A DNA stretch of 64,000 nucleotides from Bacteroidota bacterium. Lineage in GTDB: Bacteria > Bacteroidota > Bacteroidia > 2-12-FULL-35-15. The translations under genes were made by a program, and so were the position numbers. Of the stretch, positions 28,326-56,971 are shown in pieces. The DNA is taken from the NCBI GenBank assembly GCA_025963715.1, contig JAOQAG010000006.1:1-64000 (forward strand), read 5' to 3'. Every line of letters starts with the position of its first letter. Position 1 is the first letter of the stretch. The notes under the pieces are model-generated. The model saw nothing but the letters and a program-made list of their open reading frames with translations. It searched no databases and was not told the origin of the DNA.

Positions 28326-28444
28326 CAAACAAAGCAAACAACCAGCCTTAGCATCTTCGCGAGAAAAAAATTCAAAAATAAATTTGCACAGCACAATATT
28401 TTACATTTACTTTGCGTTACAAAGTACTTTTAACAGCACTATCC

Positions 28445-29068
28445 ATGGAAGAACAAAAAGAACATTTGCAGGCCTTATCGGACATACGTTCCATGATGGA
28501 ACGTTCCTCGCGTTTTATTTCCCTCAGCGGATTATCAGGCGTGTTTGCCGGGATCTTCGCACTGATCGGGGCATATCTTGCGTACGTAAGGATCGGGTCG
28601 TATAGTGACCGGTATGCAATTATGACCCGGCTTGATGTTACTGAAACGATCATCTACTTATTTCTTGTTGCTGCAGGAGTATTGGTTGCATCATTGATCG
28701 TAGGTGTTTTACTGACCATGCGCAATTCAAAAAAACGCGGCATTAAAACATGGGACAATACCGCGAAACGCCTGCTCATTAATTTAATAATTCCGCTGGG
28801 TACAGGTGGTTTATTTTGCCTGATGCTTATTTATCACGGTTATATTGAAATGGTTGGTCCGGCCACACTTATTTTTTATGGCTTAGCATTGCTCAATGCC
28901 AGTAAATATACATTGAATGATATCCGTTACCTTGGGATCTGTGAGATCGTGCTGGGTTTATTATCTTCCTTTTACACCGGTTATGGCCTGCTGTTCTGGG
29001 CTTCCGGTTTTGGAATTTTGCACATCGTTTATGGCTCGGTAATGTACTTTAAATATGAAAGGGATTAA
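28445..29068 (+). CDS. Membrane protein of unknown function
   Basis: 207 residues from the ATG at 28445 (MEEQKEHLQALSDIRSMMERS); an upstream TTG at 28412 is inside repeat-adjacent sequence and unlikely. An N-terminal amphipathic helix is followed by about six membrane helices (FAGIFALIGAYLAYVRIG, IIYLFLVAAGVLVASLIVG, LIIPLGTGGLFCLMLIYH). This arrangement is recurrent in Bacteroidota next to winged-helix regulators. No catalytic residues seen. Confidence 0.8.
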   Translation: MEEQKEHLQALSDIRSMMERSSRFISLSGLSGVFAGIFALIGAYLAYVRIGSYSDRYAIMTRLDVTETIIYLFLVAAGVLVASLIVGVLLTMRNSKKRGIKTWDNTAKRLLINLIIPLGTGGLFCLMLIYHGYIEMVGPATLIFYGLALLNASKYTLNDIRYLGICEIVLGLLSSFYTGYGLLFWASGFGILHIVYGSVMYFKYERD

Positions 29069-29167
29069 TTAGTAGTTAGTCCTTAGTAATTAGACGGAAC
29101 AGTGCAGATCAAAAAATAGTATACACAGATTTGTATATTCGTATTTATTAGTAATTCGTAACTACAC

Positions 29168-29215
29168 ACCCCTAACCCCTCTCAAGAGGGGAATTGATTC
29201 TGCAAGCATTTTTAA
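29168..29215. repeat. Family C-like fragment
   Basis: CCCCTAACCCCTCTCAAGAG with a short palindrome CCCCTCTCAAGAGGGG, related to the CCTCTCCCC units at 22051 and 36625. It sits in the ACGAATTAC-rich spacer between 29069 and 29298. Confidence 0.5.
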
Positions 29216-29298
29216 TTATGCACAGATTGGTATATTAGTAAAAATTGGTATTTAGTAGATTTATACAGATTTGTAATTCGTAAAATTCGTAATTCGTT

Positions 29299-29598
29299 GT
29301 GAAAAATTATATCCAGCAATTAAACAAAGCATTTGAAAACCGTATCCGGTTGGGGATCATGAGCATCCTCATGGTCAACGACAGGGTGGAGTTCAGCGCT
29401 TTAAAAGAAATGCTGGACATTACCGACGGAAACCTGGCTTCGCATATTTCGGCGCTCGAAAAGCTCGAATACATTGAAGTGCAAAAACAATTCATCGGGA
29501 AAAAACCAAACACCACTTATTTAGTAACACGCGTTGGAAAAAAAGCATTCAACGAACACCTGGATGCGCTGGAAAAGCTTTTAAAACAACGGGATTAA
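29299..29598 (+). CDS. Winged-helix transcriptional regulator
   Basis: 99 residues from a GTG start. A compact winged-helix DNA-binding domain of the HTH_34/ArsR-MarR type: FENRIRLGIMSILMVNDRVEFSALKEM contains the first helices, the recognition helix is in ITDGNLASHISALEKLEYIE, and the wing is VQKQFIGKKPNTTYLVT. No ligand domain. It heads a tight set of genes reaching 34057 and probably autoregulates it. The GTG call rests on the frame and conservation of KNYIQQLNKAFENRIR. Confidence 0.9.
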   Translation: MKNYIQQLNKAFENRIRLGIMSILMVNDRVEFSALKEMLDITDGNLASHISALEKLEYIEVQKQFIGKKPNTTYLVTRVGKKAFNEHLDALEKLLKQRD

Positions 29599-29696
29599 GC
29601 TGTATATATTTTTTTGCCTTTAAACTTTGAACTGCAAAGTACTTTTAAATAATAGTAATAATAGTAATAATAACACAAACCTCTAACTCTAAAAAC

Positions 29697-30407
29697 ATGG
29701 GAATCGCATTTGCAATGGGTATACCTTACACCGCCTTCTTGATTTATCTGATCGTTCAAATCATTCTTACATTAAAACGGAATGAAAAAAAATGCAAAAG
29801 CACAACCGCTGCCGGGATCCTTCTTTTTTCAGAGATCCTTTTTACTGTTGTTGGTCCGGCTCTTGGTTTTTATCGTTTTGATGCCTTCGGCCCGGAAATT
29901 CCATTTGCCAAACAACATGTGCTCATCATCATTTTATTGTCGGCTGTAGGTTCTGCTTCCTTCTGGCTGGCGCGCGCAACAAAAGATACAGACAATCTTT
30001 TTGTGCGCATTTTTTTATCCGCAGGCATGCTGCAGGGAATTATTTTATGTGCCGTAGTAACCATTCACTTTACCGAATTTTTGCTCATGGGAATTGTTTT
30101 TCCATGGGCCGGATTTGAATTGTTATGTCCACTGGTAGCCTTTTTTATGCTCATCCGTGAGCTTTATTTTTATAACCGGGTGAACCTTGATATGGACGAG
30201 TTGCTTCCGTATCGCCGCGAGCTGGGTGTAGAACCTGTTCAATACAAATTATTTCAACAACCGCTACCGGTTCGCTTGTTTGTTTATGCCGCAATTGTGG
30301 TTGTACTGGTGATCGTGCAGGTGCTGCTCGGTTACGCTATCGGGCTGCAGCCGGATAGTATCATCAAAGCATTTACTCAATCTGTTGGTTTCGTATTCTC
30401 CCGCTAA
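29697..30407 (+). CDS. Polytopic membrane protein of unknown function
   Basis: 236 residues with roughly six membrane helices, for example TAFLIYLIVQIILTL, ILLFSEILFTVVGPALGF and LFVYAAIVVVLVIVQVLLGY. No recognisable family motif. It is preceded by an AATAATAGTAATAATAGTAA tract and ends 11 bases before the Coq4-like gene, so it is translated as part of that operon. Transport or sensing is possible, unproven. Confidence 0.75.
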   Translation: MGIAFAMGIPYTAFLIYLIVQIILTLKRNEKKCKSTTAAGILLFSEILFTVVGPALGFYRFDAFGPEIPFAKQHVLIIILLSAVGSASFWLARATKDTDNLFVRIFLSAGMLQGIILCAVVTIHFTEFLLMGIVFPWAGFELLCPLVAFFMLIRELYFYNRVNLDMDELLPYRRELGVEPVQYKLFQQPLPVRLFVYAAIVVVLVIVQVLLGYAIGLQPDSIIKAFTQSVGFVFSR

Positions 30408-30418
30408 ACATAAAAGCC

Positions 30419-30901
30419 ATGCTGAAAAAAATCAAAAAAATAAGATCACGCATTCTCGAATTGCTTACACACGATGTAGCATTGCCGCTGATCACCAAAT
30501 TCCGGAACAACCGCAAATTCAATTATTCCATGCAGCAATTACTGGAATTACCCGATGGCACACTGGGGAAAGATCTGGCTGTGTACCTGCAAAAAAAGAA
30601 ATTCAATCTCCTGCGCAATTACGAGCGTCATGATTGCAAGCACATCATCCTCGGTTACGAAATGGATGAAGCAGGGGAGGCGCGCATGCAGTTTTATTTC
30701 CTCGGGAACGGGCATTATTCCATTACTGTGATTAGTACCGTGCTGATCTGTTTTGTGCTGATGCCCGAACACTGGAAACAATTTTCCCGCGATTATAAGT
30801 TCGGGAAAAAAGGAAAACGGTTTGAAGATCCCGATTACAATCTATTGGTAGTGATGAATACAAACGATCTGAGAAAACAATATTTAAATACTGCTTTATG
30901 A
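30419..30901 (+). CDS. Coq4-like protein
   Basis: 160 residues. Contains the Coq4 signature: LPDGTLGKDLAVYLQ near residues 44-58 and the HDxxHx11E metal motif exactly (H71, D72, H75, E87 in RHDCKHIIL and AGEARM). Coq4 proteins bind Zn and act in ubiquinone biosynthesis; work on human COQ4 points to C1 decarboxylation/hydroxylation of the head group. Bacteroidota generally use menaquinone, so its role here is unclear. A weakly hydrophobic segment (ISTVLICFVLMP) suggests membrane association. It overlaps the next gene by four bases (ATGA). Confidence 0.8.
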   Translation: MLKKIKKIRSRILELLTHDVALPLITKFRNNRKFNYSMQQLLELPDGTLGKDLAVYLQKKKFNLLRNYERHDCKHIILGYEMDEAGEARMQFYFLGNGHYSITVISTVLICFVLMPEHWKQFSRDYKFGKKGKRFEDPDYNLLVVMNTNDLRKQYLNTAL

Positions 30902-31389
30902 AAACATACACAGCCCCACAATTGAAAAAACGCATCAATACCTGGCTTTGGTTATTTATTATTTTCCTGGTATTGAGCGGTGTTACTGCATTTCCGATAG
31001 AAACAGAGCTTTCATTTTTATCCGCTCATTCTTCCGCGCTTCCATTGGAATTGCAAAACTGGATCACACACATTTACGATGCCGTAAAAAATACCAGTCA
31101 GCAGTATCCGCAGCTTTCGTATGGCACCGACTGGCTTGCCTTTGCACATCTGGTGATCGCAACAGCTTTTATCGGCCCGCTAAAAGATCCTGTAAGAAAC
31201 ATTTGGGTGATCCGGTTTGGGATGATCGCCTGTGTGATGATCTTCCCGCTGGCTTTTATTGCCGGGCCTATCCGCCACATTCCGTTTTACTGGCAGCTGA
31301 TCGATTGTTCTTTCGGCGTATTAGGACTCCTCCCGCTTTACCTGTGCTATAAACATATCAAACAACTGGAAAATTTAACCGCTAATTAA
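30898..31389 (+). CDS. Membrane protein of unknown function
   Basis: 163 residues, four predicted membrane helices (TWLWLFIIFLVLSGVTAFPI, WLAFAHLVIATAFIGPL, MIACVMIFPLAFIAGPI, DCSFGVLGLLPLYLCY). Start ATG overlaps the stop of the Coq4-like gene, implying translational coupling. A motif GTDWLAFAHLVIATAFIGP repeats across Bacteroidota homologues in my memory, but I cannot name the family. No catalytic site is visible. Confidence 0.75.
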   Translation: MKTYTAPQLKKRINTWLWLFIIFLVLSGVTAFPIETELSFLSAHSSALPLELQNWITHIYDAVKNTSQQYPQLSYGTDWLAFAHLVIATAFIGPLKDPVRNIWVIRFGMIACVMIFPLAFIAGPIRHIPFYWQLIDCSFGVLGLLPLYLCYKHIKQLENLTAN

Positions 31390-31395
31390 ATCATT

Positions 31396-33330
31396 ATGAA
31401 AAAGAACGATGTCATTTTAATTGTATCCATTATCCTCTACAGCTTCCTGTTTTACGAACAAAGCGCCGGAATTAATTTCCTGCTTTTTAATGCGGGACTC
31501 ATCACTTTACTGATCATCAGGGATAAAAACGTGTACAGGCAAAAAAACTGGCAACTGGCTGCTGCCGGGAGTTTGATAAGTGCAACGTGTATTACGCTTT
31601 ACGCGAACGGCTTATCGGTTACGGCCAACATTATTTCCCTGTGCGCACTTTCTGCTTACAGTTTCCGGCCAAAAACATCCATTATTACGTCCATTTGTTT
31701 TTCATTTGCATCCATTATCGGGTCGTTTGTATTCATGATCCTGGATATCATCCATCGCGCCAGCAAGCCCGTTGTAATAAATGATAAAAAACAAAGCGGT
31801 TCCAAATGGCTCATCTACAGCATTTCGTTTGTGATCGTACTTGTTTTCTTTTTATTGTACAAAAGCTCCAATCCGCTTTTCGATAATTTTACAAAAAATA
31901 TCAATTTCGATTTTATTTCCCTGCGCTGGGTTGTGTTCACACTTTCCGGTCTGTTTCTGCTGTACGGTTTTTTTTATCACAAAGTGATCCGCATTATTTC
32001 CGAAAGGGAAGAAGCAAAACCCAATGACCTGTTGCTGGAAAACAGTAGCAATAAATCTATTTTTAATTTAAGCGTTGAGAACGAAAACCGTTCGGGAGTA
32101 GTGCTGCTTGTGTCGCTAAACATATTGTTATTGCTGGTGAATTTGCTGGATGCTAATTTTATGTTTATAAACAGCACCTTGCCTTCCGGCTTAACGTATT
32201 CCCAGTTTGTACACCAGGGAACCGGTACGCTCATTCTTTCCATCATCATTGCCATCTCTATTATTTTGTATTATTTCCGTAGCGGATTAAATTTTTACAG
32301 CGGTAACAAACAATTAAAAATGCTGGCGTATGCATGGGTTTTTCAAAATATATTTATGATCTGTTCCACTGCTTTCCGCAATAATTTATACATCGCGGAA
32401 TACAGTCTTACGTACAAGCGCATTGGCGTGTATGTATGGCTGTTGCTGGCACTGATCGGCTTACTGACCACATTTGTAAAAATATTCCGTGTAAAAAGCA
32501 ACTGGTATTTATTCCGTTCCAACGGCTGGTTATTTTACGCAGCGCTGGTGATCAGCTGTGTTTTTAACTGGGATGTGATTGTTGCCGATTATAACATCGC
32601 AAGTGCAGCAAAAAATAATAAAGCCATCGATAAATTTTACCTGCTTGATCTTTCCGATAAAATATTGCCGCAATTACTTTCCCTGGAAAATTGGGATAAA
32701 AATAAAAAATCAGAAAAAATGGAAATTCCTTTGTCAGAAAGAGAATTTCTTCCTTCTGATGTTAGCTTCAATCGTTTTTTAAGCGAATCGGTCTATAAAT
32801 TTTTATTGAGTTATCAGGGTCGGCAGTGGAAATCTTGGAATTATTCCGATCGTGTGATTCATGATCAGATCATTGCATTGAATAGAGAAGAAAAAATAAA
32901 TCGTTTTGATATTTCAAGCTATGAAGGTGTTTTTTCACTTGCATCCATCTCAGAATTGGATGGAATTAAAACCCTGAATCTTTCCGGAGATTTCGGTTTC
33001 AATCTTCATGAACTGACACCGTTTAAAAAGCTTACAGCATTAAATTTATCAGATTGTAATATCAACTCTATTCTTAGTTTTCCTGATCTGGAAAATTTAA
33101 CATCGCTTGATCTTTCCGGCAATCAGATCACTAATCTCGCCATGATCCGGAATGCGCCCAATTTGGAACAACTGGATCTTTCAAAAAATGAAAATCTGCA
33201 CGATTTCAGATCACTGTTGTGCTTAAAAAAATTAAAACATCTTGTGATCGGTAACATCACCCAAAAAGGTTTTGATACACTGCAAATGTTATTTCCGGAT
33301 ACCAAAATTGTAGCTAATATTTATAATTAA
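31396..33330 (+). CDS. DUF4173-type membrane protein fused to leucine-rich repeats
   Basis: 644 residues. The first ~400 hold about ten membrane helices and the DUF4173/DUF4153 signatures (SIILYSFLFYEQSAGINFLL, LFDNFTKNINFDFI). After a connecting region comes a C-terminal leucine-rich-repeat fold at about 505-644 (IKTLNLSG, LTALNLSDCNINSI, LTSLDLSGNQITNL, LEQLDLSKNENL). The repeats face the aqueous side and would bind a partner. Second-last gene of the tight 29299-34057 run. The fusion is not what I expect of plain DUF4173 proteins (~500 residues). Confidence 0.85.
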   Translation: MKKNDVILIVSIILYSFLFYEQSAGINFLLFNAGLITLLIIRDKNVYRQKNWQLAAAGSLISATCITLYANGLSVTANIISLCALSAYSFRPKTSIITSICFSFASIIGSFVFMILDIIHRASKPVVINDKKQSGSKWLIYSISFVIVLVFFLLYKSSNPLFDNFTKNINFDFISLRWVVFTLSGLFLLYGFFYHKVIRIISEREEAKPNDLLLENSSNKSIFNLSVENENRSGVVLLVSLNILLLLVNLLDANFMFINSTLPSGLTYSQFVHQGTGTLILSIIIAISIILYYFRSGLNFYSGNKQLKMLAYAWVFQNIFMICSTAFRNNLYIAEYSLTYKRIGVYVWLLLALIGLLTTFVKIFRVKSNWYLFRSNGWLFYAALVISCVFNWDVIVADYNIASAAKNNKAIDKFYLLDLSDKILPQLLSLENWDKNKKSEKMEIPLSEREFLPSDVSFNRFLSESVYKFLLSYQGRQWKSWNYSDRVIHDQIIALNREEKINRFDISSYEGVFSLASISELDGIKTLNLSGDFGFNLHELTPFKKLTALNLSDCNINSILSFPDLENLTSLDLSGNQITNLAMIRNAPNLEQLDLSKNENLHDFRSLLCLKKLKHLVIGNITQKGFDTLQMLFPDTKIVANIYN

Positions 33331-33334
33331 TATT

Positions 33335-34057
33335 ATGAGACCAATTGTAAAAACAATTACCTGGCTTACCGTATTTGCCATTGCCATGGGCTTTTTAGAA
33401 ACTTCCGTCGTGGTGTATCTGCGCAAGCTGTATTATCCCGGTGGGTTTGATTTTCCACTGATACCCGTTACCTGCGATATTGCCACTACTGAATTCTGGC
33501 GCGAAGTTGCTACCATCATCATGCTTATCGGAGCTGGAATTATGTCGGGTAAAAATCCGCTGCAGCGCTTTGTATTTTTCCTATATACATTCGCCATCTG
33601 GGATGTTTTTTATTATGTGTTTTTAAAAGTAGTGCTTGACTGGCCGCAATCGCTTTTTACCTGGGATATTTTATTTTTAATTCCCGTTCCATGGGTAGGG
33701 CCGGTACTGGCGCCCTGCTTAATTTCCCTGTCCATGATCCTGTTCATGCTTGTTGTGGTGGTACAGCAGGAAAAAGGAAAAAATGTAAAAATAAATTTTG
33801 TTGAATGGCTGCTGTTTATTACCGGCAGCGTTACCGCGATTGTTTCCTTCATGTGGGATTATATCATGTATGTTTCCAGCTACGGTGCCGACAAAGGCGT
33901 ATGGACCTTATCCAGCAATCAGAATATGTTTGATGAAGTAAAACATTATGTTCCCGCACATTTTAACTGGGGATTGTTTTGCGTCGGGCAAGGCGTTATT
34001 TTACTGGCGATTGTGCTGGTGTGGTGGAGAGGAAGAAGGATGAAAATTAAGGAATGA
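33335..34057 (+). CDS. Polytopic membrane protein of unknown function
   Basis: 240 residues, about six membrane helices. Notable conserved-looking segments are IWDVFYYVFLKVVLDWP and FLIPVPWVGPVLAPCL, and Trp-rich helix ends. Starts four bases after the DUF4173-LRR stop and is the last gene of the run. A C-terminal WWRGRR faces the cytoplasm by the positive-inside rule. No family named. Confidence 0.75.
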   Translation: MRPIVKTITWLTVFAIAMGFLETSVVVYLRKLYYPGGFDFPLIPVTCDIATTEFWREVATIIMLIGAGIMSGKNPLQRFVFFLYTFAIWDVFYYVFLKVVLDWPQSLFTWDILFLIPVPWVGPVLAPCLISLSMILFMLVVVVQQEKGKNVKINFVEWLLFITGSVTAIVSFMWDYIMYVSSYGADKGVWTLSSNQNMFDEVKHYVPAHFNWGLFCVGQGVILLAIVLVWWRGRRMKIKE

Positions 34058-34227: not shown

Positions 34228-34872
34228 ATGAAGTTAATAAAAACAATGGCCATCTCTTCTGCACTCTGTGTAATGCTGCTATATGCACGTGTTCAATGGA
34301 GCGGAAACCTGCATTACGTTTTCCTCGTCTGGAATTTATTCCTTGCCTGGGTCCCGTTCCTGTGCGCTTTCTTTTTATCGGAAGCAAAAAATAATAACCG
34401 TTCAAAATACCTGTTGATTGCATTATTTGGCGCCTGGCTTTTATTTTTTCCTAATTCGCCTTACATCATTACCGATCTTTTTCATTTAAAACAAAATATG
34501 GGAATTCCGTTGTGGTTCGACCTGGTGCTTATTTTATCATTTGCCTGGAATGGCTTGCTGCTGGGTTTTTCCTCCCTGCTGGAAGTGCAGCGCATCTTAA
34601 AAATGTACTTAAATATAAAGTGGGTTCACCTGTTCATTATGGGCTTAATGATCCTCTGCAGCTTTGGGATTTACCTGGGCCGCTATCCACGCTGGAACAG
34701 TTGGGACATTATCAGTAACCCGGTTGCGCTGTTCGCCGATATTTTTAACATGCTCATTCATCCTTTCCATAATACAAGAATGGTGGGTGTTACATTTTTC
34801 TTTTCCTTATTTTTGATCGCCGGTTATCAAACGCTGGATGCATTGATCCGGAATTTTAAAAAAGAAGAGTAA
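34228..34872 (+). CDS. DUF1361 membrane protein
   Basis: 214 residues with about six membrane helices and the DUF1361 signatures NLHYVFLVWNLFLAWVPF, FPNSPYIITDLFHL and YLGRYPRWNSWD. The family is widespread in bacteria and unstudied as far as I know. Acts in the cytoplasmic membrane. The normal family length is about 210-220. Confidence 0.85.
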   Translation: MKLIKTMAISSALCVMLLYARVQWSGNLHYVFLVWNLFLAWVPFLCAFFLSEAKNNNRSKYLLIALFGAWLLFFPNSPYIITDLFHLKQNMGIPLWFDLVLILSFAWNGLLLGFSSLLEVQRILKMYLNIKWVHLFIMGLMILCSFGIYLGRYPRWNSWDIISNPVALFADIFNMLIHPFHNTRMVGVTFFFSLFLIAGYQTLDALIRNFKKEE

Positions 34873-35222: not shown

Positions 35223-35585
35223 ATGAAAAAATTCAGTATCACCGACCGCATCAAAAGTGTTGGTTACGCATTGGAAGGCTTAATCGTATTTTTTAAAACC
35301 CAGCACAATGCCTGGATCCATGTTGCAGCAGCAGCGATTACCATTGCCGCAGGCTTTTATCTGCAGCTCGGTAAAACCGACTGGCTGATGATCATCATCG
35401 CAATAACGCTGGTGTTTATTACAGAAATGTTCAATACCGCCATCGAATTTTTATGCGATGTGGTTTCGCCGCAAATTCATCCCGGGATCAAAAAAGTAAA
35501 AGATGTATCGGCCGCGGCAGTGCTTATTGCTGCAATTGCTGCAATTGCGATGGGAATAATTGTTTTTTTGCCGCGGATATGTTAG
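35223..35585 (+). CDS. dgkA: Diacylglycerol/undecaprenol kinase (DgkA family)
   Basis: 120 residues with three membrane helices. Core motifs: KSVGYALEGLIVFFKTQHNAWIH with the conserved N-A-x-I-H/E region, TEMFNTAIEFLCDVVSPQIHP with the catalytic E..NTAIE, and KVKDVSAAAVLI. Phosphorylates diacylglycerol or undecaprenol; Gram-positive-like members favour undecaprenol. Preceded by a family E tract. Confidence 0.93.
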   Translation: MKKFSITDRIKSVGYALEGLIVFFKTQHNAWIHVAAAAITIAAGFYLQLGKTDWLMIIIAITLVFITEMFNTAIEFLCDVVSPQIHPGIKKVKDVSAAAVLIAAIAAIAMGIIVFLPRIC

Positions 35586-35609: not shown

Positions 35610-36038
35610 ATGAAAACATTAAAGCATATTGTACTCGTAACCATTTTCGGTTTATTATTTAATTCGGCATTGCTGGCGCAATCCATTCAAAACAGCTCGT
35701 ATTCCACCGTAGGCTATATTAAAAGCGATGGTACCGTTCAGGACGGATCTTATTCAACTGTTGGTTACATAAAAAGCGACGGAACGGTTCAAAATAGTTC
35801 GTATTCAACAATTGGCTACATAAAAAACGACGGGACAGTTCAAAACGGCTCGTATTCCACCATTGGTTATATTAAAAGTGATGGTACCATTCAGGACGGA
35901 TCGTATTCCACGATCGGTTATATCAAAAACGACGGAACGATCCAGAACAGTTCCTATTCCACCATTGGGTATGCAAAAGACGTTGACCAGAATGAAGCGG
36001 CCGCTGCGGTATTCTTTTTCTTCTTTCGGTTAAATTAA
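35610..36038 (+). CDS. Exported 17-residue-repeat protein (5-fold beta-flower type)
   Basis: 142 residues. Signal peptide ends SALLAQ. Five full repeats and a sixth partial unit of SYST(V/I)GYIK(S/N)DGT(V/I)Q(D/N)(G/S) occupy residues about 28-125. They resemble proteins annotated as '5-fold beta-flower', probably a small closed propeller-like fold. The DNA repeats (51 bp) differ mainly at third positions, so the protein rather than the DNA is conserved. The C-terminus AAAAVFFFFFRLN is an odd hydrophobic tail. Begins 24 bases after dgkA. Function unknown. Confidence 0.85.
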   Translation: MKTLKHIVLVTIFGLLFNSALLAQSIQNSSYSTVGYIKSDGTVQDGSYSTVGYIKSDGTVQNSSYSTIGYIKNDGTVQNGSYSTIGYIKSDGTIQDGSYSTIGYIKNDGTIQNSSYSTIGYAKDVDQNEAAAAVFFFFFRLN

Positions 36039-49036: not shown

Positions 49037-50056
49037 TTGAACGCAAAACAGATCAGGGAAGTAAAATCACTTCTCTCAAAACCGAAGAATATTGTTATAG
49101 TTACTCACTGGTCACCCGACGGTGATGCGATCGGTTCCTCTTTGGGATTGTATAACTACCTTATCAAAAAAGATCACAAGATTACGGTTGTTACCCCAAA
49201 TGATTATCCGGCATTTTTATACTGGATGAAAGGAAACAGCAAAGTGCTTGATTTTCAGAAAAAAATAAAGTCCGCTAAAAATGCCGTTGCTAAAGCAGAT
49301 CTTATTTTCTGCCTCGATTTTAATTCCCTCAAACGCATTGATAAGCTGGGAGATGAGGTATCGAAATCTCCTGCCATCAAATTCATTATTGATCATCATT
49401 TACAGCCCGACGATTTTGCCAAATACATGCTGCACAGCACCGAAGCCTGCTCCACCTGCGAGCTGGTGTTCGATTTTATCCAGCTCATGGGCGATAAAAA
49501 ATTAATGGACAAGGACATTGCCAATTGTTTATATACCGGCATTATGACCGATACCGGCTCGTTCCGTTATCCCTCCACTACCGCCAAAACGCACCGCATT
49601 ACAGCAGAACTGATCGATGCCGGAGCCGAAAACGGCGAGATCCACAACCGCATTTACGATACCAGCACCGAAAAAAGATTAAAATTACTCGGCTTTTGCC
49701 TGGATGAAAAACTGATCGTTTTACCCGAATACCGCACCGCTTTTTTCAACATCAGCGATGCCGAATTAAAGCGCTACAATTATCAGAAAGGCGATACCGA
49801 AGGCGTTGTGAATTTTGCATTGGGGATCGAAGGCATTCGTTTTGCAGCATTTTTTGCTGAGCGCGATGGCATCATCAAAGTATCGTTCCGCTCCAAAGGC
49901 AGCTTTGATGTCAATAAATTTTCGCGTGCTAATTTCAGTGGCGGCGGACATGCTAACGCAGCAGGTGGAATGAGCGAATTATCGTTGAAAAAAACCATTG
50001 AAAAATTTGTGGCCCTGTTGCCGGAATACAAAAAACAACTTCTTTCAAAAAAGTAA
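49037..50056 (+). CDS. nrnA: Bifunctional oligoribonuclease / PAP phosphatase NrnA (DHH family)
   Basis: 339 residues from the TTG at 49037 (read as Met, then NAKQIREVKS), chosen because a promoter -7 box covers the upstream TTG. DHH/DHHA1 phosphoesterase: WSPDGDAIGSS (DxD), LDFNSLKRID, IDHHLQPDDF (DHH), TGIMTDTGSFRYP, and the DHHA1 motif SGGGHANAAGG. Degrades 2-5-mer RNA and 3'-phosphoadenosine phosphate. First gene of a tight run with the FKBP genes. Confidence 0.95.
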   Translation: MNAKQIREVKSLLSKPKNIVIVTHWSPDGDAIGSSLGLYNYLIKKDHKITVVTPNDYPAFLYWMKGNSKVLDFQKKIKSAKNAVAKADLIFCLDFNSLKRIDKLGDEVSKSPAIKFIIDHHLQPDDFAKYMLHSTEACSTCELVFDFIQLMGDKKLMDKDIANCLYTGIMTDTGSFRYPSTTAKTHRITAELIDAGAENGEIHNRIYDTSTEKRLKLLGFCLDEKLIVLPEYRTAFFNISDAELKRYNYQKGDTEGVVNFALGIEGIRFAAFFAERDGIIKVSFRSKGSFDVNKFSRANFSGGGHANAAGGMSELSLKKTIEKFVALLPEYKKQLLSKK

Positions 50057-50060
50057 TAAA

Positions 50061-50591
50061 ATGAACTATTGCATTCCTTTTTGCCTAGCCGTTCTTGTGC
50101 TTTTTTCCTGCGGGGATACCCAAAAGAAAACAACCAAAAATACCAATATCCAGAGCAAAGAATTTCAGGACAAGCTGGTGGAAGCCAATAAAATGTATGT
50201 GAAACGCGAAAGCGATGAGATCGATCAGTATGTGGCATGCCATAACCTGAACATGATCACTACCGGTACCGGGCTGCGTTACATGATTACCAAAAAAGGC
50301 GATGGGAAAGAGCTGGCACAGGTAGGGCAAACTGCAAGGGTGAATTATAAGGTTAGCCTCCTGGATGGTACCTTTTGTTACTCTTCCGATAAAAATGGCC
50401 CCGAAAACATTGTGATCGGGAAAGATTATACCGAAACCGGTTTGCACGAAGGCATGCAATACCTGCACGTAGGTGATGAAGCGCTCTTTATCCTGCCATC
50501 CCATCTTGCACACGGTCTGGCCGGTGATGGGGATAAGATCCCTGCCAAAGCATCCGTTATTTACGAAATTAAGTTATTATCACTAAGGTAA
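50061..50591 (+). CDS. GldI-like FKBP-type peptidyl-prolyl isomerase lipoprotein
   Basis: 176 residues from the ATG at 50061, four bases after nrnA. Lipobox VLFSC. One FKBP domain from about residue 65 with VGQTARVNYKVSLLDG, GLHEGMQYLHVGDEALFILP, HLAHGLAGDGDKIPAKASVIYEIKLL. Several aromatic pocket residues are replaced, so catalysis may be weak. Resembles GldI, a periplasmic FKBP lipoprotein needed for gliding in Flavobacterium johnsoniae. First of four FKBP genes. Confidence 0.88.
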   Translation: MNYCIPFCLAVLVLFSCGDTQKKTTKNTNIQSKEFQDKLVEANKMYVKRESDEIDQYVACHNLNMITTGTGLRYMITKKGDGKELAQVGQTARVNYKVSLLDGTFCYSSDKNGPENIVIGKDYTETGLHEGMQYLHVGDEALFILPSHLAHGLAGDGDKIPAKASVIYEIKLLSLR

Positions 50592-50592
50592 A

Positions 50593-51495
50593 ATGCTGAA
50601 AATTAAAATTTTATGTGTTTTATCTGTAGTGATACTTTTGTGTTCCTGCTGGGAGGATTCTGCTCACAAAGGATATACTCAAACCGACTCCGGATTGTAT
50701 TATAAGCTCCGGGTGATCGGCGACGGAAAACGCAAGCCTGCCATCGGCGATTATCTTCAATTGCGCATCACTTACAAAACGGAAAAAGATTCGATCTTCC
50801 TGGATTCCTATTCCAGTAATGAAACCGGCATGGTGATCCTGCCTTTTAATCATTCTTCTTTTAAAGGAAGTTTTGAGGAAGGTTTAACAACCATGAACGA
50901 GGGCGACAGTGTTTCATTCATCGTAGACGGAGAATCTTTGTTCCGGGATTTTTTTAAAGTGAAATTACCCTTGTTCCTGCAACCGGGCGATGCCGTAAAA
51001 ATGGAGGTAAAGCTCAACCGGATTCTGGATAAAACAGCCTACGGGCAAACCATCACCGAGTACAAAAATATGGTGGAAGACCGTGACATTGAGGAACAGC
51101 GCAAGCTCAAAACCTTTTTGGATACCTGCCAGGAACATTATATCTTTTTCAGCAACGGCATCTATTGTTTACCCATCAGCCAGGGTACCGGTTATACTGC
51201 CGAATACGGAGACCTGGTAAAGATCAATTATAGCGGCTCCTTTCTCGACGGGCGTGTTTTTGAATCCACCTACATGCGCGGGCAATCGCTGGAATTTAAA
51301 ATCGGGGAACAGGGGCAGGTCATAAAAGGGATCGAATTAGCAATAAGTTTATTGAACGAAGGCGGCAAAGCAAAATTTATTATACCTTCGCAGCTCGCTT
51401 TTGGAGAAACAGGTTCTTCTACCGGAATTGTTCCTCCGTACAGCACGCTTATTTACGAAATAGAACTATTAAATATCAACAAAAACAATAATTAA
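50593..51495 (+). CDS. FKBP-type isomerase lipoprotein, two domains
   Basis: 300 residues, one base after the previous stop. Lipobox LLCSC. The N-terminal FKBP-like half is degenerate (SSFKGSFEEGLTTMNEGDSV, LPLFLQPGDAVKMEVKLNRI). After a helical linker (YKNMVEDRDIEEQRKLKTFL) a better-conserved FKBP domain follows: YGDLVKINYSGSFLDGRVFEST, QGQVIKGIELAISLLNEGGK, IPSQLAFGETG and IVPPYSTLIYEIELL. Trigger-factor-like holdase or isomerase role in the periplasm is inferred. Confidence 0.85.
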   Translation: MLKIKILCVLSVVILLCSCWEDSAHKGYTQTDSGLYYKLRVIGDGKRKPAIGDYLQLRITYKTEKDSIFLDSYSSNETGMVILPFNHSSFKGSFEEGLTTMNEGDSVSFIVDGESLFRDFFKVKLPLFLQPGDAVKMEVKLNRILDKTAYGQTITEYKNMVEDRDIEEQRKLKTFLDTCQEHYIFFSNGIYCLPISQGTGYTAEYGDLVKINYSGSFLDGRVFESTYMRGQSLEFKIGEQGQVIKGIELAISLLNEGGKAKFIIPSQLAFGETGSSTGIVPPYSTLIYEIELLNINKNNN

Positions 51496-51502
51496 AAATC
51501 AC

Positions 51503-52498
51503 ATGAAAAATTCATTTTCTAAAAAACTTAGCTTTGCTGCTTTAGCTGCTGTTGTTGCCATTACAGCCTGCACAAAATCCGACCATCCTGGTTACGAAAA
51601 AGCCGATAACGGTTTATATTACAAGTTTTATAAACAAGATGAAAAAGGTGTGAAACCGAAAGAAGGCGATGTAGTGAAATTGACATTGAAATGGAAAAAC
51701 AGCAAAGATTCCACCCTGTTTGATTCTACAAACCCGAAATACAACCCAAGCGGAAAAACAACCATTGAATTTCCTTTACAAAAATCAACTTTCAAAGGAT
51801 CGTTCGAAGATGCTTTAATGATGATGGCGGTTGGCGATAGCGCAAGCTTTTTGATCAACGCTGATTCCGTATACCTGGCAACATTCAAAGCAAAAGAATT
51901 GCCTCCATACATTCAAAAAGGAACGGTGCTTACATTTGAAACAACACTTTTGAAGGTAACTTCTAAAGATGAGGTGGAAAAAGAACGCCAGAAACAAATC
52001 GAAGAGCAAAAAGTGATGATGGAAGCAAGAAAAGGAGAAGAAGCAAAAACACTTGCTAAATATTTAGAAGATAACAAGATTACTACCAAACCAACAGCAG
52101 ACGGTTTGTATTACATCGAGAAAACAAAAGGTAAAGGCGGCCACCCAAGCAAAGGTGACCAGGTAAAAGTAAATTACATATTAAGTCTTATAGATGGTAA
52201 AATGTTGGAAACAACATTGCCGGAAGCAGCAAAAGCAGGTGGGATCTTTGACGAAAAACGTCCATACGCTCCTGCAGAATATGGGATCGGACAATTGATC
52301 CCGGGAATGGATGAAGGCTTGTTGATGATGAGCAAAGGATCAAAAGTAAAATTGATCATTCCTTCTTCTATCGGCTACGGCGAAGGTAACCAGGGGATTC
52401 CTCCATACACAACATTAGTGTTTGAAGTGGAGCTGATCGATTTTCATGCAGCGCCTGCAAATCAGGGCCCGCCAATGCCTCCGACACCAACAAGATAA
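51503..52498 (+). CDS. FKBP-type isomerase lipoprotein, two domains
   Basis: 331 residues. Lipobox VAITAC. Same layout as the previous gene: a degenerate N-terminal FKBP half (STFKGSFEDALMMMAVGDSA), a charged helical linker (EVEKERQKQIEEQKVMMEAR) and a C-terminal FKBP domain (KGDQVKVNYILSLIDGKML, IGQLIPGMDEGLLMMSKGSK, IPSSIGYGEG, IPPYTTLVFEVELIDF). It ends with a Pro-rich tail PPMPPTPTR. Likely paralogue of the preceding gene by duplication, seven bases apart. Confidence 0.87.
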   Translation: MKNSFSKKLSFAALAAVVAITACTKSDHPGYEKADNGLYYKFYKQDEKGVKPKEGDVVKLTLKWKNSKDSTLFDSTNPKYNPSGKTTIEFPLQKSTFKGSFEDALMMMAVGDSASFLINADSVYLATFKAKELPPYIQKGTVLTFETTLLKVTSKDEVEKERQKQIEEQKVMMEARKGEEAKTLAKYLEDNKITTKPTADGLYYIEKTKGKGGHPSKGDQVKVNYILSLIDGKMLETTLPEAAKAGGIFDEKRPYAPAEYGIGQLIPGMDEGLLMMSKGSKVKLIIPSSIGYGEGNQGIPPYTTLVFEVELIDFHAAPANQGPPMPPTPTR

Positions 52499-52516
52499 TC
52501 GCTCCAACAGCATTTT

Positions 52517-52555
52517 AATTCCGGCCGGAAGAAACCCGTTTCTCCGGCCGGAATT
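52517..52555. other. Strong intercistronic hairpin
   Basis: AATTCCGGCCGGA on the left pairs with TCCGGCCGGAATT on the right, then further pairs (one bulged A) close a four-base CCCG loop, about 17 bp in all. There is no T-tract, so it may trim or stabilise the mRNA or end transcription weakly before the three-domain FKBP gene. Confidence 0.65.
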
Positions 52556-52581
52556 ACATTCACTAAATAAATAATTGCCCT

Positions 52582-53820
52582 ATGAAAAAAGTATTAATTC
52601 TATTTTTGGCCCTTACCGCTCTGAGTGTAAATGCACAGGACAAAAGCAAAACCAAGGAATCGGCTAAAGCCAAAAGTGTAAAAGTAAAAAAGCCGAAAAC
52701 CGTGAAAACAGCATCAGGATTAGAATACACCATCACTGAAAAAGGAGATGGTAAAAAGCCGCAAAACGGCGATAAAGTAGTGGTTCATTACACCGGAAAA
52801 TTAACCAACGATACGATATTTGACAGTTCCGTAAAAAGAGGGCAGCCTTTTACCTTTAAGCTGGGTGCAAGCCAGGTGATCAAAGGATGGGACGAAGCAT
52901 TTTTATTATTGCAGGTAGGCGATAAAGCCACCATTAAATTCGGCCCCGAGCTGGGTTACGGTGCACAGGCAAACGGTAAGATCCCTGCAAACTCCACACT
53001 GGTGTTTGATGTGGAATTGCTGGATGTGATAGAAGGCGTTAGACCGTATGATGTAAAAGGAAAAGACACGATCAAAACAGCAAGCGGGTTGCAGTGCATC
53101 ATTGTTCATGCAAATAAATCAGGAGCAGCTGCAATTGCCGGAACAAAAGTAGTAGCCAATTACAGCGCTTATTTTTTAGATGGAAAAATGTTTGATTCAT
53201 CCATCGACAGAGGCCAGCCTTTAAAATCATCCATCGGAAAAAATCAATTGTTCCCTGGATTGGAAGAAGGAATTGCCTTATTGAAAATGGGAGAAAAAGC
53301 ACGTTTGATCATTCCTTCCAAACTGGCATTCGGTGAAAAAGGCGCAGGCCCGATCCCGGCAAATACCGATCTTGTATTTGACATTGAGATTACTGATGTT
53401 CAAAAAATTATTCCTCCTGTTCAATACGATATCAAAGGACTGGAAGCGAAAAAAACAGCATCGGGAATTACCTATTATGAAGTGAAAAAAAGCGGTAGCG
53501 GCATACAGGCAGCAGCCGGAAAAATTGTGAAAGTGCATTATTCGGGTTACCTGGCTGATGGAACCATGTTCGATTCTTCAGTAGAGCGCGGTGAACCGAT
53601 CGAGTTTCCCTTAGGTGCCGGACGTGTGATCCCGGGTTGGGAAGAAGGAATTGCATTGATGAGCGTAGGTGATAAATTACGTTTAGTGATCCCTTATTTT
53701 TTAGCATACGGAGAACAAGGCCGTCCGCCGCAAATCCCTGCAAAAGCAGATCTTACATTTGATGTAGAGCTGGTAGATGTAAAAGATGGTGGCACACAGC
53801 CAATGCAGATGCAACACTAG
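52582..53820 (+). CDS. Three-domain FKBP-type isomerase
   Basis: 412 residues. Signal peptide ends ALSVNAQ with no lipobox, unlike its neighbours. Three FKBP domains begin near residues 48, 160 and 290, each with TASGL/TASGI start, VHYTGKL.. or VHYSGYLADGTMFDSS, GW(D/E)E(A/G) and IPAN/IPAK..L.FDVEL. Domains 1 and 3 keep the canonical pattern and domain 2 (PGLEEGIALLKMGEKARLII) has partial changes. Periplasmic folding factor. A perfect terminator follows at 53848. Confidence 0.93.
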   Translation: MKKVLILFLALTALSVNAQDKSKTKESAKAKSVKVKKPKTVKTASGLEYTITEKGDGKKPQNGDKVVVHYTGKLTNDTIFDSSVKRGQPFTFKLGASQVIKGWDEAFLLLQVGDKATIKFGPELGYGAQANGKIPANSTLVFDVELLDVIEGVRPYDVKGKDTIKTASGLQCIIVHANKSGAAAIAGTKVVANYSAYFLDGKMFDSSIDRGQPLKSSIGKNQLFPGLEEGIALLKMGEKARLIIPSKLAFGEKGAGPIPANTDLVFDIEITDVQKIIPPVQYDIKGLEAKKTASGITYYEVKKSGSGIQAAAGKIVKVHYSGYLADGTMFDSSVERGEPIEFPLGAGRVIPGWEEGIALMSVGDKLRLVIPYFLAYGEQGRPPQIPAKADLTFDVELVDVKDGGTQPMQMQH

Positions 53821-54136: not shown

Positions 54137-54144
54137 TATCTTTG
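54137..54144 (+). promoter_or_regulatory. -7 box for the acylation cassette
   Basis: TATCTTTG matches TAnnTTTG exactly, 21 bases before the ATG at 54166. It overlaps the longest frame start at 54142, supporting the later ATG. Confidence 0.65.
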
Positions 54145-54165
54145 CCACCGATTTTTAATTTCCCT

Positions 54166-55557
54166 ATGAGCGAAAAAAACAGGCATTCTCAACCTTTTAT
54201 CATGGTACTGGCAACAGCTGTGATCCTGTTTGTTCTTTCGCAGTTCAAAACAGAATTTAATGTGCTAGGTTACCAGGCAAAAAAAGTAGCGCCACTGGCG
54301 GATGTATTGGAAAAAGGGAAATTAAAAAATGTACCGCTGCCGCAGCAGGTCGTAACCGATTCCATCATCTCGAAAGATAGCGTGGCGTTTGCAAAACGCG
54401 ATGCCGATTCGAGCAACATCATCAACTTTGCAACCGATAGCAGCTCAGCTTTAGCGCATTTTTTCGGCGCACTTAATAAGATCAAAAAACAAAAAGGAAA
54501 AGTACGCATTGCCTATTTTGGCGATTCCATGATCGAAGGCGACCTGATCACACAGGATCTGCGGAACGAAATGCAGGAAGCATTCGGTGGCGCAGGTGTA
54601 GGCTACATGCCAATTACATCTATCGTTGCAGGCTTCCGCACCAGCATTATCCACCAGTTTGGCGGCTGGACCACGCACACGCTCCTGGATGTAATACCCG
54701 CCAACCATGTGCTGGGAATCTCGGGTTACAGTTTTGTACCGGAGCTTACCGGGCATGTGGATACAAGCAATGTAAGCGCTGGCAGCTGGGTAAAATATGT
54801 GGCCGTGAAACAAAAATACCTGGATAAATTTTACAAAACAAAACTGTTGTACGGAAAAAGCAAGGGCGAAAATTATGTGGTGATCAACAACACGCATTAT
54901 AAACTGGATGGGACCAACCCGGTAAACCAGCTCTCGGTAAATTGCGGAGCCGGAGTACAATCCATCAGCGCAAAATTCCAATGCACCACACCGCTCGATG
55001 TGTTTGGTTTTAGCATGGAAAGCGATAGCGGTGCATTTGTAGATAATTTTTCTTTCCGTGGTAACTCCGGTTTTCCGCTGGTGAAAGTGCCGCAGAATGT
55101 ATACGCAGGCACCAATGATTGTTTGGGTTACGACCTGATCGTGCTGGAATACGGCCTCAATGCAGTAAGTCCGCAGGTCACCGATTTTTCGTGGTACGAG
55201 CGGGGCATGCTTAGCGTGATCAGTCACATCAAGGCAAGTTTCCCCAATGCAAGCATTTTGCTGATCAGCGTAGGCGATAAAGCTTATCGCAAGGATGGTG
55301 TTTATCAAACCGATCCAAGCGTGCCGATCCTCGTAAAGCTGCAGAAAAAAATGGCGGAACAAACCGGTTGTGCGTTCTGGAGCTTGTACGATGCCATGGG
55401 CGGTAACGGCTCCATGGTTACCTGGGTGGAAGGCGATACCGTGATGGCCAACAAGGATTACACGCATTTTAATTTCCGCGGCGCGCACAAGGTTGGTAAA
55501 TTGCTGTACAGTAAATTAATGAGTGAATACACCGATTATAATAAGAAAAGTGATTAA
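54166..55557 (+). CDS. SGNH/GDSL-like extracellular protein 1
   Basis: 463 residues from the ATG at 54166. One N-terminal membrane anchor (FIMVLATAVILFVLSQF). An SGNH-hydrolase fold shows block I AYFGDSMIEGD (Ser121), block III with GLNAVSPQV and the C-terminal D431..H434 dyad in DYTHFNFRG. The domain between blocks is a beta-sandwich. This is the pattern of AlgJ/AlgX-type or esterase-like partners of MBOAT acyltransferases. The next gene starts one base after the stop (TAAcATG). Confidence 0.85.
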   Translation: MSEKNRHSQPFIMVLATAVILFVLSQFKTEFNVLGYQAKKVAPLADVLEKGKLKNVPLPQQVVTDSIISKDSVAFAKRDADSSNIINFATDSSSALAHFFGALNKIKKQKGKVRIAYFGDSMIEGDLITQDLRNEMQEAFGGAGVGYMPITSIVAGFRTSIIHQFGGWTTHTLLDVIPANHVLGISGYSFVPELTGHVDTSNVSAGSWVKYVAVKQKYLDKFYKTKLLYGKSKGENYVVINNTHYKLDGTNPVNQLSVNCGAGVQSISAKFQCTTPLDVFGFSMESDSGAFVDNFSFRGNSGFPLVKVPQNVYAGTNDCLGYDLIVLEYGLNAVSPQVTDFSWYERGMLSVISHIKASFPNASILLISVGDKAYRKDGVYQTDPSVPILVKLQKKMAEQTGCAFWSLYDAMGGNGSMVTWVEGDTVMANKDYTHFNFRGAHKVGKLLYSKLMSEYTDYNKKSD

Positions 55558-55558
55558 C

Positions 55559-56869
55559 ATGAAACAAACGATGCTGTTTTCCGGGAGATCTTTTTTCTTT
55601 AAAAGAAAGAATGTAATGCGCTTAAATGCGGTGATCCTGCTATTGCTAATGGCCGATTCGCTTTCGGCGCAAACGATCGATTCCACTGCTTATAAATCGT
55701 ATGCGTTCATCCGCACCGATCTCAATAAGATTAGCAACGACAGCGCTTCGCTTTCTTTTTTATATGAAAAATTATACCAGCTCGAAAAAACAAAACAGGG
55801 CCGTGTAAACATTGCGCACATTGGCGATTCGCACATCCAGGCGGATATTTTATCGGGCAGCATCCGTCAGAAATTACAATTGCGCTTCGGGAATGCCGGT
55901 CGCGGCCTGATCTTCCCATACCGCGTTGCAAAAAGCAACGAGCCTACCAGCTATAAAACAATTACCAATGCCAACTGGGATTCCAAACGTAATGTGTTTT
56001 TTGATAAACCATTGCCAATCGGCGTAAGCGGTTTTACGGTAGATACAAAAGATTCATCCGCCGAAATTAATTTACTGGTGAAAGACCAGCCGGGGTTGGG
56101 ATACAGCTTTACAAAGTTTACGCTGTTTCACGATCGCGGACAAAACAATTATGACATTACCATTTGCGACGATCTGAATTGTGAGCGTGGCAAATTCAGG
56201 TCGATCGATAAATCCAACAATCCGTTTGTATCGGAATTAAAATTTGACAAGCCTATCCGTCAGATCTACATCCGCAACAGCGTTGAAGATACTGCTGTGC
56301 AAAAATCCACGCGCATTTACGGGATGCTGCTGGAAAACGATTCGGCGGGTGTGCTTTACAATATGATCGGTGTAAACGGCGCTGAATTCAGGCATTACAA
56401 CATGTCGAAGTATTTTTTACAGCAATTCACCTATCTGAATTCCGATCTGATCATCATCTCGATGGGAACCAACGAAGGATTTTACGGTGGTTTCGACAAA
56501 GATCTGTTTTATAAAAACATTGATACGCTGATTACTAATATTAAGAATGCAAACCCGAATGTATCCATTTTACTGACCACTCCGGGTGATTCATTCCGGA
56601 AAAGCCGCAAAGGCCGCGTAAAAAACCCGGATATGCAGGTTGCGGAACAAACAATGATAAAATATTGCCTGGATCATAACCTTGCTTATTGGGATCTGTA
56701 CAGCATTATGGGCGGTTACGGCTCCATGGCGAAATGGTATTCGGCCAAATTATCGGCAAAAGATAAAGTGCATTTTAGTGGAAAGGGTTACCAGATCCAG
56801 GGCGATTTATTTTACCGCGCGTTTATCAGCGGATATGAAAAGTATGTGAGTGCAAAAGTGAAGAAATAA
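55559..56869 (+). CDS. SGNH/GDSL-like extracellular protein 2
   Basis: 436 residues from the ATG at 55559; a better signal peptide begins at a later Met (MRLNAVILLLLMADSLSAQ). Paralogue of the preceding gene: block I AHIGDSHIQAD, block III IISMGTNEGF, and C-terminal D-x-x-H in DKVHFSGKGYQ. All catalytic residues seem intact. The pair suggests two chemistries, for example transfer and trimming of acyl groups, though this is inference. Followed by the MBOAT gene after 102 bases. Confidence 0.85.
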   Translation: MKQTMLFSGRSFFFKRKNVMRLNAVILLLLMADSLSAQTIDSTAYKSYAFIRTDLNKISNDSASLSFLYEKLYQLEKTKQGRVNIAHIGDSHIQADILSGSIRQKLQLRFGNAGRGLIFPYRVAKSNEPTSYKTITNANWDSKRNVFFDKPLPIGVSGFTVDTKDSSAEINLLVKDQPGLGYSFTKFTLFHDRGQNNYDITICDDLNCERGKFRSIDKSNNPFVSELKFDKPIRQIYIRNSVEDTAVQKSTRIYGMLLENDSAGVLYNMIGVNGAEFRHYNMSKYFLQQFTYLNSDLIIISMGTNEGFYGGFDKDLFYKNIDTLITNIKNANPNVSILLTTPGDSFRKSRKGRVKNPDMQVAEQTMIKYCLDHNLAYWDLYSIMGGYGSMAKWYSAKLSAKDKVHFSGKGYQIQGDLFYRAFISGYEKYVSAKVKK

Positions 56870-56898
56870 ATAGTTGAGCAGAATTTTAATTACAGAGT

Positions 56899-56923
56899 CG
56901 TCATCCCGCACTTGTTGCGGGAT
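56899..56923. repeat. Half family B palindrome
   Basis: GTCATCCCGCACTTGTTGCG and GGATC in the short spacer between the second SGNH gene and the MBOAT gene. Fold is a small hairpin; may tune transcription between the two genes. Confidence 0.6.
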
Positions 56924-56971
56924 CTCATAAAATGAAGTCCTAACATAATAAATCGGGAAACTAAAATAAAA

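Follow-up and report, generated by a model that had tools for sequence, protein, structure and literature searches.

A candidate gene-control cassette of Bacteroidota: the Mem0-HTH_34 pair, its shared operator and exchangeable envelope cargo

Stand-alone winged helix-turn-helix regulators with an adjacent signalling partner, known as HAAS-PadR-like dyads, have been suggested as another means, besides two-component systems, of responding to membrane stress (PMC11237479, PMC6624303). The LltR operon of Listeria, which is of the HAAS-PadR type, is autoregulated (PMC6624303). In Stenotrophomonas maltophilia the protein CreD is required for envelope integrity (PMC4689548). The locus described here lies in a stretch of 64,000 nucleotides (nt) from a Bacteroidota bacterium (GTDB lineage Bacteria; Bacteroidota; Bacteroidia; 2-12-FULL-35-15), positions 1 to 64,000 of contig JAOQAG010000006.1 of assembly GCA_025963715.1, hereafter the window. 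It contains six co-directional open reading frames (ORFs) on the + strand at 29299-34057, with intergenic distances of 98, 11, -4, 6 and 4 nt. We consider it likely, with a probability of about 0.7, that the run belongs to a gene-control cassette common among Bacteroidota: a dyad of membrane sensor and repressor, made up of the membrane protein Mem0 and the winged-helix regulator HTH_34, would govern swappable envelope cargo by way of a shared operator. This reading rests on the observed adjacency of the pair, the operator, its specificity across genomes, the swapping of cargo and the presence of off-locus targets. No published description of such a cassette was found in the open-access literature, and nothing relevant was found there on the motif, XrtN or DUF4153.

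An initial annotation of the same DNA had described a module of six genes in one direction, with gaps of which only the first (99 nt) differs from the values given above. The direction and the coupling of the genes under one-component control were borne out, and the composition only in part: the module is conserved, but it is larger than proposed, the upstream membrane partner Mem0 had been omitted, and neither MemA nor Coq4L, both optional, defines it. The limits 29299-34057 had to be abandoned, as the unit begins upstream at Mem0 (28445) and extends downstream through DUF1361 and DAGK. The features of the locus are as follows.

28383-28430, + strand: class-P element, with TTTG of the -33 region at about 28383-28386, a -7 box at about 28407-28414 and the operator ACTTTGCGTTACAAAGTACTTT at 28409-28430
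28445-29068, + strand: Mem0, polytopic membrane protein, partner of HTH_34; ATG start
29299-29598, + strand: HTH_34, stand-alone winged-helix regulator; GTG start; PF13601, 4.2e-30
29609-29645, + strand: class-R element between regulator and cargo, with a T7 tract at 29609-29615, 8 nt and the operator ACTTTGAACTGCAAAGTACTTT at 29624-29645
29697-30407, + strand: MemA, membrane protein, optional cargo; weak DUF6688 match
30419-30901, + strand: Coq4L, Coq4 family, optional cargo; PF05019 borderline; HDxxHx11E (H71, D72, H75, E87)
30898-31389, + strand: MemB, small polytopic membrane protein, frequent cargo; no Pfam family
31396-33330, + strand: DUF4153 membrane protein with C-terminal leucine-rich repeats, main cargo; PF13687, 2.4e-48
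33335-34057, + strand: MemC, polytopic membrane protein, cargo; no Pfam family
34228-34872, + strand: DUF1361 membrane protein, frequent cargo; PF07099, 2.4e-47; position kept in congeners
35223-35585, + strand: DAGK, prokaryotic diacylglycerol/undecaprenol kinase family, frequent cargo; PF01219, 1.5e-33; position kept in congeners

Among the genomes compared, the order of the source genome is represented by one genus (n=36). The gene order Mem0, HTH34, [MemA], [Coq4L], MemB, DUF4153, MemC, DUF1361, DAGK was constant across the 20 congeneric loci compared, the bracketed genes being the optional parts in the genus. Since this order is kept in the 20 congeners and in other families, the coupling of the six-gene run is far beyond chance. 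The wider sample was restricted to Bacteroidia and consisted mainly of draft genomes; Mem0 and MemB were scored in 295 of them and Coq4L in 395. Mem0 was present in 93/295 genomes, always as a single copy. HTH34 followed Mem0 in all of the 107 loci compared, so that a stand-alone winged helix-turn-helix gene is coupled to a membrane partner gene in every one of them, with one ORF intervening in three. In the 87 loci outside the genus the two genes were directly adjacent in 84, with a median gap of 2 nt and a 4-nt overlap in 35 of the 84. The neighbourhood check across other Bacteroidota suggested by the initial annotation thus showed homologues adjacent in other genomes.

The regulator matched PF13601 (HTH_34) with 104.2 bits against a cutoff of 27 in a profile search (E 4.2e-30), in agreement with its earlier description as a one-domain winged-helix protein. 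Its nearest solved structure is 1UB9, and the mean column identity within the genus is 91%. In nearly all congeners (29299 and the orthologues L054-L071) its start codon is GTG or TTG instead of ATG, which suggests selection for low translation. Mem0 starts with ATG; the alternative TTG start of its ORF, at 28412, falls inside the operator. Its AlphaFold2 model, with a predicted local distance difference test (pLDDT) score of 90.7, shows an N-terminal helix and six long helices, and nothing in the PDB matched the fold of this model below E 0.001. The spacer between the two genes (29069-29298) is 230 nt long here, whereas its median length outside the genus is 2 nt. With an inverted repeat, CCCCTCTCAAGAGGGG, at 29176-29191 and short repetitive AT-rich text, it resembles a small inserted repeat.

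The operator was found by aligning the DNA upstream of Mem0, where it is near-invariant in the 20 loci of the genus. It spans 22 nt, ACTTTGNNNNNCAAAGTACTTT, and is built from three half-sites, with CTTT and AAAG alternating. In the source genome (4.9 Mb) the full motif occurs without mismatch exactly twice, at 28409 in the Mem0 promoter and at 29624 in the gap separating HTH_34 from the first cargo gene. Its 10-nt core, with up to one mismatch allowed, was located upstream of Mem0 in 91/107 loci and after HTH34 in 81/107, versus 2-3% in shuffled sequence; the second copy lies a median of 18 nt past the HTH34 stop. A survey of 198 Bacteroidia genomes at the same tolerance revealed the operator in 63/63 genomes with Mem0 and in 4/135 without it (Fisher 2e-47, uncorrected for phylogeny; all p-values given here ignore the relatedness of the genomes and are descriptive only). 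The four headless genomes all had single-mismatch sites, and an exact match was found in none of the headless genomes.

Two classes of sites could be distinguished. Class-P sites, upstream of Mem0, carry the hallmarks of Bacteroidota promoters, namely TTG near -33 (76/96) and T at -2 (94/96), and their operator overlaps the -7 box at a fixed spacing. At class-R sites, after HTH34, these figures were 6/83 and 36/83, and a run of at least six T at -15 to -9 was present in 74/83, versus 5/96 at class-P sites. At some stand-alone targets, such as a DUF4153 gene of genome G202, both types occur in tandem, the promoter type before the T-tract type. Scans of the window for sigma-70 and Bacteroidota promoters performed no better than chance, except in the aligned region upstream of Mem0. 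As for separate promoters within the run, which the initial annotation had named as an argument against a common unit, the internal element at 29609-29645 does carry the operator but shows few of the Bacteroidota promoter hallmarks, which makes an internal checkpoint more plausible here than a promoter of its own.

The composition of the cargo varied widely. In the 87 loci outside the genus, DUF4153 was found 38 times, CreD and MemB 24 times each, MemC 22, DUF1361 16 and DAGK 14 times; further cargo comprised an exo/endonuclease/phosphatase-family protein (12), Coq4L (11), a ferritin-like protein (5), XrtN with a VIT protein (4) and a B12-radical SAM protein (3). DUF4153 and CreD are alternative cargos, almost never present together, as they shared only one locus (Fisher 1.7e-6). 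MemB was detected in 46/295 Bacteroidia genomes. It was also considered whether DUF4153 or CreD always accompanies the dyad, and this was ruled out: 45/111 and 23/73 genes, respectively, were near a head, the rest being elsewhere or in headless genomes.

Operator copies away from the locus were examined at 24 sites, leaving out G205 (two), G113 and G036:C50. Seventeen of them precede genes of cargo families: Coq4L (3), DUF4153 (3), XrtN-VIT (2), an exosortase (1), radical SAM (2) and two small membrane families (6). Relocated genes that retain the operator provide strong evidence for a putative common control, and the operator at stand-alone Coq4L genes connects the Coq4-like protein with the system by a line of evidence other than adjacency. 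Operator copies were also observed immediately before polysaccharide-export (Poly_export/SLBB) genes in G085:C5 (L282) and G121:C20 (L283), which makes a link to capsule or exopolysaccharide possible. By analogy, the role of CreD in envelope integrity offers the best clue to the process that the cassette may serve.

Several observations weigh against this reading. Seven of the 24 off-locus targets belong to other families, including two polysaccharide-export proteins, an MPAB/Lcp oxygenase and DUF2809. Five head loci have neither site and 19 lack the second one, and Mem0 may serve another role than that of a sensor. Furthermore, 20 sampled CreD and DUF4153 genes from genomes without Mem0 had no HTH34 neighbour. 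These proteins can therefore work without the dyad, which is thus a regulator that adopted them and not an obligate part of them.

A more detailed mechanism can be put forward tentatively: a kinase-free membrane-sensing dyad would gate an interchangeable envelope-repair repertoire by promoter occlusion at the head and a repressor-dependent roadblock at the T7/operator checkpoint. The DNA-binding activity of HTH_34 would be set by Mem0 in response to the membrane or envelope state that it senses, and HTH_34 in turn would bind ACTTTG-N5-CAAAGTACTTT, as suggested by the near-perfect co-occurrence of the operator with Mem0-HTH_34. At the Mem0 promoter, where the operator lies over the -7 box, binding of HTH_34 would result in autorepression. 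Bound at the second copy, which lies downstream of HTH_34 and the conserved T7 tract, the regulator would stop RNA polymerase coming from the head before it reads into the cargo. A polymerase stalled at the bound protein would have its RNA-DNA hybrid near the T tract, and roadblock termination is proposed on this basis. Alternatively, the T tract may merely aid binding, or class R could be an unusual second promoter. In the proposed mechanism, release would turn on envelope membrane proteins: here MemA, Coq4L, MemB, the DUF4153 protein with its leucine-rich repeats, MemC and probably DUF1361 and DAGK; elsewhere CreD or XrtN/VIT.

Regarding the cargo proteins of this locus, the Coq4-like identity given initially was confirmed as a borderline case. 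Coq4L matched PF05019 at 7.1e-5 with 22.6 bits, just under the cutoff of 22.9; 26 of 28 homologues matched the Coq4 profile (best 7e-13), one congener being above the cutoff. The residues H71, D72, H75 and E87 of the HDxxHx11E metal motif are invariant in the 28-sequence alignment, whose mean identity is 30%; one further, closer congener (L055) has HVxxH, with V for D. The only structure match was PDB 3MSQ, a putative ubiquinone biosynthesis protein (E 0.0012). The gene is present in 11/36 genomes of the order, each time inside the present locus, and in 27/395 Bacteroidia genomes, while a search of genome contigs yielded three close relatives only. In three congeners a ferritin-like protein is encoded directly upstream of Coq4L (L061:10022-10894, L062:10101-10880, L063:2197-3051); it shows the pattern E, EExxH, E, DExxH, with the EExxH and DExxH segments conserved, and the pair recalls the COQ7-COQ4 pair of ubiquinone synthesis. 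No match to the COQ7 family (PF03232) was obtained in the 36 genomes of the order, other Ubi genes not being searched, and because of this classical ubiquinone synthesis with COQ7 appears unlikely. A role in relation to quinone is possible for the Coq4-like protein, which is probably a metal-binding accessory interacting with lipids or isoprenoids.

The large protein, initially taken for a DUF4173 fusion with leucine-rich repeats, does have a C-terminal repeat region (about residues 505-622); its family is DUF4153 (PF13687, 2.4e-48, 165.6 bits, profile positions 5-372 of 373), and DUF4173 was ruled out. It is full-length or nearly so in 21/36 genomes of the order, the full-length orthologues having 622-903 amino acids with a repeat tail of variable length. 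MemA, with its weak DUF6688 match, is present in 8/36 of these genomes. MemB and MemC gave no family in the Pfam profile search, and a PHROGs search gave no useful result. In alignments MemB has invariant Y75, D78, H84 and R126 and MemC has invariant charged residues, which suggests a catalytic or transport role for both. The AlphaFold model of MemC (pLDDT 88.3) had no match in the PDB below E 0.001.

Another possibility is that the products of the six genes make up a dedicated complex or pathway that is embedded in the membrane and acts on lipid or quinone, Coq4L being a catalytic part of it. This agrees with the invariant metal motif, the lipid-kinase family DAGK in the locus, the ferritin-like protein recalling COQ7-COQ4 and the operator at stand-alone Coq4L genes. 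It is nevertheless improbable, considering that Coq4L occurs in only 11/36 genomes of the order and 11/87 head loci outside the genus, that the cargo is replaced wholesale by CreD or XrtN/VIT and that COQ7-family matches are absent from the order. A fixed version of the membrane-embedded complex that the initial annotation offered as one reading is unlikely because the cargo is freely swapped and is also controlled at scattered sites.

Slightly less probable again is that the 22 nt belong to an RNA leader, or else serve as a site of recombination for cargo exchange, with HTH_34 acting elsewhere. ACTTTG-N5-CAAAGT is capable of forming an RNA hairpin, a T7 tract accompanies the second copy, the head lies between copies in direct-repeat orientation, and the cargo is modular. 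On the other hand, the paired positions 0 and 16 show no compensatory change (A-C 18, G-T 14, G-C 0), and this absence ruled out the hairpin; the copies upstream overlap, at a constant spacing, with elements of the promoter, and genome-wide the element is almost confined to genomes with Mem0-HTH34. That the locus is an ordinary operon of unrelated membrane genes, inherited together with no common regulator or function, might be argued from its many proteins of no known function and its variable cargo; it is highly implausible given that the same families recur in many Bacteroidia families and that off-locus copies retain the operator.

Other regions of the window also drew attention. Beside DAGK, a small beta-flower protein (PF21785) with near-identical repeats (YSTVGYIKSDGTVQ) is encoded at 35610-36038, and several congeners retain it at that place. 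Two further groups of genes were assessed by eye only. At 49998-53820, the translations of four consecutive co-directional ORFs appear to be FKBP-type peptidyl-prolyl isomerase-like, the last with three repeats. At 54142-58462, a pair of related ORFs that look like secreted hydrolases is followed by an apparent MBOAT acyltransferase, an arrangement resembling a surface-polymer acetylation cluster.

If the cassette reading is true, the regulon of the dyad, of which about one third of the sampled Bacteroidia carry exactly one copy, could help to assign functions to DUF4153, MemB, MemC, DUF1361 and bacterial Coq4-like proteins. The regulon becomes predictable in any genome through the operator, a precise handle that also ties these orphan membrane families and the Coq4-like protein to a control shared with CreD. 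The existence of two kinds of site points to an uncommon design, with one repressor over both initiation and read-through.

Compared with known systems, Coq4L resembles Coq4 (PF05019) in its profile matches, metal motif and weak 3MSQ match; it differs in being short (about 160 amino acids), in aligning mostly over the C-terminal half of the profile and in belonging to a genus without COQ7-family genes. The XrtN exosortase and the XrtN-system VIT protein (TIGR04476, TIGR04477) are cargo of the same head in four loci and have off-locus operator copies, but are absent from the locus in the present window. With CreBC-CreD the system shares an inner-membrane envelope-integrity protein, CreD, as alternative cargo regulated by a neighbouring system. 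The regulator here is the one-domain HTH_34 with Mem0 instead of the CreB/CreC two-component system, and the window has DUF4153 in place of CreD (PF06123), of which none was found anywhere in the source genome. As for HAAS-PadR, no HAAS domain (DUF1700, DUF1129, DUF1048) matched among 60 Mem0 proteins at E 0.01, and the PadR score of the regulator was sub-threshold (14.1 bits, cutoff 27) against 104 bits for HTH_34. Judged by sequence, Mem0-HTH34 thus fails two defining features of these dyads, and homology was not found. It differs further in its two site classes with the 22-nt element and in its cargo of DUF4153, CreD, Coq4L and others. The likeness lies in a stand-alone winged-helix regulator that is always beside a partner with membrane helices and, here presumably, governs membrane or envelope proteins. 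The HAAS-PadR dyad is therefore the closest described arrangement, and by analogy Mem0-HTH34 may work in a similar way.

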